From Salvelinus alpinus (lineage: Eukaryota; Chordata; Actinopteri; Salmoniformes; Salmonidae), in the NCBI RefSeq assembly GCF_045679555.1, contig NC_092099.1:14522076-14586075 (forward strand): 64,000 bases of DNA, read 5' to 3'. The notes under the pieces were generated by a model. The model was not told where the DNA came from, did not search any database, and was given only the letters and a program-made list of their open reading frames with translations. Numbering within the stretch: position 1 is the first letter of the stretch; every line of letters starts with the position of its first letter. The position numbers and the translations under genes are program-made. Positions 11,022-64,000 of the stretch are shown here, piece by piece.

Positions 11022-11262
11022 ATAAAGTGTATTTTATTGAACCTAACTAGGCAAGTCAGTTGAGAACAAATTATTATCTACAATGACAACCTACCAAAAG
11101 GCTAAAGACCTCCTGCAGGGACGGGGGCTGCAGCAAAAATAAAAATAGGACAATAGCACATCACGACAAGAGAGACAACAAAACACTACATAAAGAGAGA
11201 CCTAAGACAACATAGCATGGTAGCAACACAACATAGGGTACAAACAAGGGCAAGAAAGTAAA
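11022..11262. repeat. Salmonid interspersed repeat downstream of klhl41
   Basis: Contains the common salmonid block AACTAGGCAAGTCAGTTGAG, then CCTCCTGCAGGGACGGGGGC and the CATCACGACAAGAGAGACAA stretch. A short relative of the first part is at 26618-26712. No coding capacity. klhl41 and fastkd1 converge here, so it lies between their 3' ends. Confidence 0.6.
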
Positions 11263-25649: not shown

Positions 25650-25661
25650 CTACCGTACTTT

Positions 25662-27388
25662 ATATTCTTCTTCGATGAGGTTTAAAGGCGGTTGGCATCC
25701 AATAAATGTTGCATTACCGCCACCTACTAGACTGGAGTATAACTCCCGTATACATTGATTTTAAAAAAACAATCCTCAAAAAATATATATTTTTCAAATA
25801 AAAAAAAACACAACAAATACCTTACCATCTAACACTAGACTCAAATAATAAATACCATACTCCACTATTTGAATATACTTATTCCTACTTTAGGCCAACA
25901 GCCTGAAAGGATGGGACACCACCACTTAACACACCGTGTAACTCTTCTGATGTCAAGTCTCGCACACCCAAATACCTCTTTGCAGCTGTCACAACAACCT
26001 CTATTTTCTGCGACCTACGTTCCATCCCTGCAGTACAGTTGATAACCATTACTATAAATGCCAAAAATCCAATCTTACTGAAACATGTATCACTTGTTGG
26101 CCTATCCCTCTGTACTGGTACAGATCTACTACTACACCACTCCTCTCAGGATCCCTCCCCCTTGACCCATCTTCCTCTACTTTCTTCACTACCTCACCAT
26201 ATGACAACTTCTGCACTACTCTAACCCTGGAAACCTCAACCTGCCTCTCTCGCACAGGACATTTCTGATCCCCAGCCCCTTAGGCACCCCTACAATTAAC
26301 ACATATAACTACTTTCCCCAATGCTACACACTTCTTTGTCTCATGCTCTTCTGCACACTTCTTACATCTAGGAACCTCACTCCTACACACTGCTGCCACA
26401 TGCCCATAAGCTTGACACCTGTCACAACGTAATGTAGTCGGCCAAAAGCTCATACTGGATAACTTATATATCCTAACATAAAAACTCAAAAGAACAGACA
26501 ATGAATCTTCTGTTTCTCCACTCACGCCAACCTGTCTGCTTTGCACCAAACAACTCCAGTAATCACTCCTTTCAATGGCGCCCTATTCTTGAGAGCAAAA
26601 CAATTCACATATCTTGCCCCCATTTATTTATTTAACCTTTATTTAACTAGGCAAGTCAGTTAAGAACACATTCTTATTTACAATGATGGCCTACCAAAAT
26701 GTTTAACACGGCGCTCCCTATGACCAGCAGAAACACATACAATTATCACAAGACCACTTCTGGTTACCCTCAGCGATTCCACAACACCCAACTCTGTTTT
26801 CACCCACCCTGAAACCTCAAATGGATCAAAGGGGTCCACTTAAAAAAAAAACTTCACTCCTACAGTGACAGATTCATCTTTATTCTGACCCTCAGTGCAA
26901 GCCTCGGGCTCCGAGAACTTCACCACACCTACCACCTCCGATACTTCGCCCTCAATTACTTCCATTTCTCCTCCCGTCTTCAACTCACTCTGTTACACTT
27001 TCTACCATTCTTCTTTTAACAATCTCAATTTTTCCCGCCATTTTAACCGACTCAAGCTCACCCGCTTCCTCTCTCTCTTAGACCTCCTCTGCCTCTTTTT
27101 CTCTCCGTTCCTCCTCCGTATTCCAAGTATAACTATCCTTATGATAATACTGCACTTCTTCTGACATACATATTGTTCTTGCCTTGTCAATTGGACGCCA
27201 TTTAACCGGCTGTCACAAGCAGAACGAACCCCTCGGGATGTAGCGCTCAAAAGTGCATCCGACTTGTAAAGCAGCTGCTTCGTCTTGATGTTCTTCTTTA
27301 TCAATATAGTAGCTACCACGACGCTTTTCCATTTCAAACAAGTGCGCTCTCTTTCTCCCTGTTTTCTCGATTTCCTGGAGCGTGACCA
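25662..27388 (-). mobile_element. ORF1-only LINE-like retroelement, 12 bp target duplication
   Basis: A perfect 12 bp direct repeat CTACCGTACTTT flanks the element (25650-25661 and 27389-27400). On the minus strand it opens with a short leader and a broken ORF1-type frame starting MEKRRGSYYIDK. Zinc-knuckle codons follow at about 26.4 kb (CDRCQAYGHVAAVC, then CKKCAEEHETKKC and CVNC), as in the nucleic-acid-binding ORF1 of non-LTR elements. A basic region follows (RERQVEVSRVRVVQ). After ORF1 there is only a short 3' UTR ending in GAAGAAGAA; no reverse transcriptase is seen. A second, partial copy begins near 63803. A salmonid repeat (26618-26712) is inserted in it. ORF1 is damaged by several stops. 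Confidence 0.75.
26618..26712. repeat. Short salmonid repeat inserted in the ORF1 element
   Basis: ATTTATTTAACCTTTATTTA, AACTAGGCAAGTCAGTTAAG and then ATGATGGCCTACCAAAA: a fragment of the repeat family also seen at 11022-11262. It interrupts the ORF1 frame and so is younger. Confidence 0.6.
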
Positions 27389-27400
27389 CTACCGTACTTT

Positions 27401-41802: not shown

Positions 41803-59407
<17,605 letters not shown>

Positions 59408-63802: not shown

Positions 63803-64000
63803 ATGAGGGTGGGTAAAAACAGAGTTGGGTGCTGTGGAATTAGTGAGGGTAACCAGAAGTGGTCTTGTGAAAGTTGTTTGTGTTTCTGCTGGTCAGAGCG
63901 AGCAGGCGCTCCATGTTAAACGAATGTGGGCAAGAGATGTAAATTGTTTTGCTCTCAAGAAAAGGGAGCAATTGAAAGGAGTGATTACTGGGATAGCGGT
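63803..64000 (+). mobile_element. ORF1-only LINE-like element, second copy (partial at window end)
   Basis: Plus-strand GGGTGGGTAAAAACAGAGTT to TGGTCTTGTGAAAGTTGTTTG is the same ORF1 sequence found on the minus strand at 26.8-26.7 kb. One frame stays open to the window edge (GWVKTELGAVE; SLRVTRSGLVKVVCVSAG; LKKREQLKGVITGIA). It lacks the 5' part, so it is 5'-truncated. Its 3' end lies outside the window. Confidence 0.7.

Follow-up and report, generated by a model that had tools for sequence, protein, structure and literature searches.

Results

Layout of the element

The window analysed here is a 64-kb (64,000-nucleotide) stretch of the Salvelinus alpinus genome. On its minus strand lies a retroelement, a 1727-bp repeat at 25662-27388, with its 5′ end at 27388 and its 3′ end at 25662. 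Read from 5′ to 3′, it comprises a 187-nt leader (27202-27388), a decayed zinc-knuckle ORF1 (25885-27201), a short 3′UTR of 223 nt (25662-25884) and a (GAA)n end. The 3′UTR, which follows ORF1 in other copies as well, terminates in a GGCGGT...ACCGCC hairpin and GAAGAAGAA. Alignment and a pattern search showed that the part of it at 25665-25738, on the same strand, is a tail common to an RNase H-bearing LINE (type B) and to two further tail types, C and D. No reverse transcriptase was found in the three sense frames of the window copy. This is the layout given in the preliminary description of the locus, which listed a leader, a zinc-knuckle ORF1 and a 3′ end lacking reverse transcriptase.

In the window copy ORF1 is a relic interrupted by stops and frameshifts, and its start was taken as the first Met of the family majority frame, located back on the window sequence. 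The open piece bearing the CCHC motif (26280-26549, minus strand) gave a weak match to Pfam zf-CCHC (E 0.38; E 0.033 in a sister copy), both values being below the cut-off. A short repeat, TTTATTTAACTAGGCAAGTCAGTTAAGAACA...GGCCTACC, is nested within ORF1 at approximately 26624-26713; it is missing from sister copies and has further matches in the window at 11044, 20826, 36479, 39152, 47679 and 56447. About 59 nt of ORF1, present in many sister copies, are missing from the window copy near 26553.

A second copy, previously placed at 63803-64000, proved to be real. It begins at 63806 on the plus strand, is 5′-truncated and internally deleted, and continues from the window edge at 64000 for 570 bp to the same 3′ end; once a further 920 bases of the contig were added, its ORF1 too was seen to lead into the same 3′UTR and tail. 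The names fastkd1 and ppig, earlier given to the neighbouring genes, could not be confirmed, as the four ORF pieces compared with Pfam yielded no family at E 0.001.

The element is bounded by a perfect 12-bp target-site duplication, as had been claimed. The left copy of CTACCGTACTTT (25650-25661) adjoins the 3′ end and the right copy (27389-27400) adjoins the 5′ end, with zero mismatches between them, and the chance expectation for such a duplication is 0.14 matches with up to one mismatch allowed. When words with fewer than three different letters were excluded, three directly repeated 12-mers spaced 1.5-2.0 kb apart were counted in the window, and the CTACCGTACTTT pair is the only one that adjoins both ends of the element.

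A dispersed family with a common ORF1-3′UTR joint

The 2.37 Gb genome from which the window comes was searched with the whole element, which matched 94 pieces. Of 3438 candidates, a first-look figure and not a verified copy number, 40 were scored, and all 40 were read with their flanks. Among them are the window copy itself and three neighbours on contig C10 that closely resemble it. In all 40, chosen as they were by whole-element similarity, the sequence crosses the ORF1 stop into the same 3′UTR; three of them (L033, L039 and L040) retain only about 10-20 nt of the 3′UTR before other DNA begins. The tail is reached in 34 of the 40 and is damaged but visible in a 35th (L027), and it has been lost through truncation or insertion in L026, L028, L035, L039 and L040. 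Between ORF1 and the tail, L033 and L044 carry 0.8-0.9 kb of other DNA. That of L033 (0.9 kb) is taken to be an insertion because it matches a LINE-like repeat at window 46042-46826 at 78%; that of L044 matched the window through the short nested repeat only.

Since the first set had been selected by whole-element similarity, a second was drawn with the last 94 bp alone (1163 candidates, of which 40 were scored and 20 of these read), a sample that is still biased toward close tail matches. Here 14 of 20 copies keep the joint across the ORF1 stop, five have the ORF1 end deleted before the 3′UTR and one (L058) has the 3′UTR only. The many copies sharing this junction that the preliminary description had looked for are thus present in the window's own genome. 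Nor did the opposite pattern appear in the copies read, that of a unique junction with reverse transcriptase in every other copy. The 60 copies were searched with two peptides, endonuclease (EN) from L084 and RNase H from L074, both of which recovered their positive controls, and in no copy did an I-type endonuclease or an RNase H turn up between ORF1 and tail. The search had a single match, in L033 (G000:C28:29275671-29280874): a piece of RNase H within the leader, 5′ of ORF1, with two stretches 76-100% identical to the query. This piece of a type B LINE is apparently an insertion.

Genome-wide lists gave a similar picture, each being the best-scored part of its candidates (5203 for ORF1, 1777 for EN and 1154 for RNase H). 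Not one of the best 150 ORF1 places is followed on the same strand by EN within 3 kb or by RNase H within 6 kb. By comparison, 17 pairs within 6 kb were found between the EN list (128 places, after 17 of 145 rows had been dropped as second pieces of one place) and the RNase H list (150 places). At G000:C28:744755-782598 an ORF1 match of equal score occurs seven times, with five of the occurrences spaced 3,337 bases apart, which probably reflects tandem repetition of a unit that includes an ORF1 copy.

The copies are dispersed over the genome, some with clear flanking duplications, and do not form telomeric arrays of the HeT-A kind. The best direct-repeat score across the two ends was at least 9 in 8 of 32 copies; when the ends of different copies were paired as a control, 12 of 256 combinations scored as high. 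Exact 11-bp repeats lie close to the ends of L011, L021, L042 and L043. Where clear, the flanking duplications measure about 10-17 bp. The 5′ ends vary: L013, bounded by its own duplication, begins with some 33 nt unlike the window copy. In L041 (G000:C2:100956969-100965338) tandem units of about 27 bp, resembling GCGAGACGGTGGATGGCGGTTGGAAGA, stand at the 5′ end of the copy and are possibly promoter monomers.

Coding history of ORF1

The majority of 58 copies gives an ancestral ORF1 that stays open in one frame for 430 codons from Met, with two CCHC-like motifs; two letters were supplied in this frame where the reference copy lacks them. Among 40 copies none has an intact ORF1, and the longest stop-free piece is 220 aa. 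Mean difference from the family majority is 6.2% over 59 copies (6.4% for the window copy), a divergence that points to an old spread of the ORF1-only family.

Variants common to at least six copies comprise 20 silent and 30 replacing changes, compared with 207 and 774 among singletons (p 0.004). After removal of CpG-type changes the counts are 9 and 15 against 175 and 753 (p 0.03). At thresholds of three and four copies the same test gave p 0.008 and 0.013, and 0.10 and 0.18 when CpG-type changes were removed. This silent excess among shared variants is weak evidence that selection may have acted on ORF1. A predicted structure of the N-terminal piece of ORF1 was uninformative (mean pLDDT 34.6).

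LINEs that share the 3′ tail

The genome was searched with a pattern that describes the hairpin and its GAA end and in which most of the hairpin stem was fixed. Counting overlaps, it gave 119 exact matches, and the reversed pattern gave none. Merging left 87 listed tails, which loop-based sorting assigned to type A (49, with the window copy), B (14), C (12) and D (11), with one other. RNase H matches lie within 0.8 kb before 8 of the 14 B tails, and an A-type ORF1 match before none of them. In the A group, 11 of 49 tails are preceded by an ORF1 match within 1 kb, and none by RNase H or, within 6 kb, by EN. One B tail (C5:69955307) has EN within 6 kb before it, with RNase H in between, and one C tail (C15:20294386) has an EN match 4.9 kb before it. 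When a single tail was folded, the result was no better than for shuffled sequences (z -0.81; 42 of 200 shuffles as good), and the tail had no match in a collection of viral contigs.

A partner LINE with the same 3′ end and a reverse transcriptase had been predicted. A LINE with this end and an enzyme ORF was found in type B, which carries RNase H upstream of the same hairpin and GAAGAAGAA; its reverse transcriptase is putative. L074 and L075 match the element at 84% over 75 bp, and the last 75 columns are common to the element and the three B copies read (83-84%). Two of these three have RNase H and a Cys-rich ORF2 end upstream of the tail, the RNase H motif having been read by eye, with Pfam RNase_H at E 0.024-0.026, below the cut-off. 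Another route to a partner, by way of PF00075, was rejected: six 1-kb stretches downstream of genome matches (L068-L073) lacked the GAAGAA 3′ end, and at least some of them resemble LTR or retrovirus-like pol genes.

The other tail types were less uniform. The likeness of the type C copies L077-L079 to the element is confined to the last 75 bp or so, with neither ORF1 nor RNase H upstream in the three read, and two of them share about 280 bp (72%); type C may be a truncated LINE or a SINE. One D copy, L082, represents a second ORF1-only type, in which an ORF1 32-36% identical to that of A is followed by a 3′UTR and the same tail. Of the two further D copies examined, one (L081) has its tail preceded by 30 nt that resemble the end of the A ORF1, and the other (L080) shows no ORF1. 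At G000:C7:31486737-31487225 a weak EN match (43%, E 4e-6) stands 269 bp ahead of a D-like tail, perhaps marking a LINE that bears this tail and has lost internal sequence. Tails of types C and D may thus belong to LINEs too.

ORF1 was read at two LINE loci. At L085 (C6:77045900) a zinc-knuckle ORF1 is followed directly by an ORF2 with AP endonuclease; a PF14529 match follows at C6:77046879, and RNase H 81% identical to the B query is found 5.4 kb on. We infer that these parts belong to one element that contains an insertion. The related LINE on C3 (L083 and L084) has the end of an ORF1, EN, RNase H 2.6 kb on and a similar tail start that breaks off. The AP endonuclease stands at the start of ORF2, directly after ORF1, in L084 and L085, as in an I-type LINE. 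The ORF1 of L085 is 37% identical to that of the present family over 189 aa (E 2e-31). As this value is so low, the ORF1-only lineage would appear to have long been separate, and its true parent may be another, unseen family.

Discussion

The element in the window is best explained as a fixed, decayed copy of a multi-copy family of ORF1-only, non-autonomous non-LTR elements, HAL1-like in organisation and copied in trans by a LINE that recognises its tail. We give this reading a probability of roughly 0.8. It builds on the family itself, the joint, the ancestral open frame, the duplications and the RNase H-bearing LINE with the shared tail. The ORF1-only, non-autonomous movement suggested in the preliminary description gains support from the shared joint, the lack of EN and RNase H domains between ORF1 and tail in all 60 copies, and the tail-sharing LINE.

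In such a scheme, the ancestral RNA would have consisted of the leader, the 430-codon zinc-knuckle ORF1, the short 3′UTR and the terminal hairpin with GAA repeats. This RNA was probably translated into ORF1p, which would then have coated it, binding in cis. Endonuclease and reverse transcriptase would have been supplied in trans by a LINE with the same tail, which we take to be of the I type (type B and perhaps others), and insertion, by target-primed reverse transcription, would account for the flanking duplications of about 10-17 bp. The common tail suggests how the enzyme may select the RNA; the same tail could also reflect common descent, with no exchange.

The most serious competitor is a large SIDE, in which a single deletion of an autonomous LINE carrying this ORF1 was followed by passive spread with no need for ORF1p. 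The weak signal of selection on ORF1 fits this idea (p 0.10, 0.18 and 0.03 at thresholds of 3, 4 and 6 copies, with CpG-type changes removed). We nevertheless regard it as unlikely: no LINE with a close ORF1 was found, the best-scored 150 ORF1 places never lead into EN or RNase H, and the LINE ORF1 that could be read is just 37% identical. Moreover, the majority frame is open over 430 codons and one D copy represents a second ORF1-only type with the same tail. We consider it very improbable that the element arose from an ORF1 mRNA retrocopied in the manner of a processed pseudogene, or that it is a SINE that acquired an ORF1. It is indeed short, single-gene and flanked by a duplication, but the window copy has no poly(A) and ends in a LINE-type hairpin and GAA repeats that it shares with a LINE. 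Furthermore, the 5′ and 3′ untranslated parts are common to the copies and ARAGORN (bacterial mode) found no tRNA gene in the window. Finally, the preliminary description offered as an alternative a single copy of a longer LINE, internally deleted and mobilised just once. This would suit the damaged ORF1 relic of the window copy and the SIDEs described in PMC6740152 as short, internally deleted non-LTR LINE elements, but it requires a unique joint and is refuted because so many copies (40/40 and 14/20, besides the second copy in the window) have the same one.

ORF1-only LINE derivatives are known mainly from mammalian L1 and from Drosophila telomeres, and the ORF1-only family described here may be compared with both. 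L1 is not known to carry RNase H. The half-L1 (HAL1) elements of mammals are presented in PMC5753468 as non-autonomous LINE derivatives of several origins that encode ORF1p only. In organisation the present family resembles them, with ORF1 but neither EN nor reverse transcriptase. However, HAL1 derives from L1, whereas here the tail-sharing LINE bears RNase H, the ORF1 of its relative has CCHC motifs and the element terminates in a hairpin and GAA repeats. The earlier comparison with half-L1 elements is apt for the way of working, but probably does not extend to descent from L1, since ORF1 matches that of an RNase H-linked LINE. As far as this match goes, the family would not be a HAL1 by descent.

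Telomeric arrays of the HeT-A kind are not known to carry target duplications. HeT-A of Drosophila is a Gag/ORF1-only non-LTR element, whose reverse transcriptase is thought to come from TART or TAHRE (PMC5537684). It is likewise ORF1-only with a borrowed enzyme, but it resides in telomere arrays, whereas the copies in S. alpinus are dispersed. The Persaeus SIDEs, internally deleted non-autonomous non-LTR elements of about 270-320 bp, share the 3′ end of their partner, the CR1 element Zenon; their ends are reported in PMC6740152 to match the partner at 94-99%, and less in Danaus. The elements described here differ from Persaeus in having retained a 430-codon ORF1, 37% identical to that of the LINE read. 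In zebrafish, the ORF2 protein of ZfL2, a stringent-type LINE, recognises a stem-loop in the 3′ tail (PMC4176376). ZfL2 belongs to the L2 clade, has its own ORF2 and is not ORF1-only, and its tail recognition is the mechanism that we infer here.

What appears new, then, is the setting: a non-L1 group of LINEs, a separately diverged ORF1 and a hairpin tail common to an RNase H-bearing LINE, the kind itself, an ORF1-only LINE derivative, being known already. A literature search found no ORF1-only LINE family in fish; Repbase may hold a name for this one.

More tentatively, and with slightly less than even confidence, the ORF1-only types A, A′ and D may form a long-lived, separately evolving lineage of parasites of the RNase H-bearing LINEs of this genome, one that kept the tail and whose ORF1, though by now less than 40% identical to that of the LINE, remained a coding sequence at the time A spread. 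If this is true, its own ORF1p would be worth more to such an element than its own reverse transcriptase. A large non-L1 family and a LINE that shares its tail, together in one genome, would offer a means of testing whether ORF1p acting in cis and a 3′ tail suffice to borrow a reverse transcriptase, and the same system could show why ORF1-only elements win.
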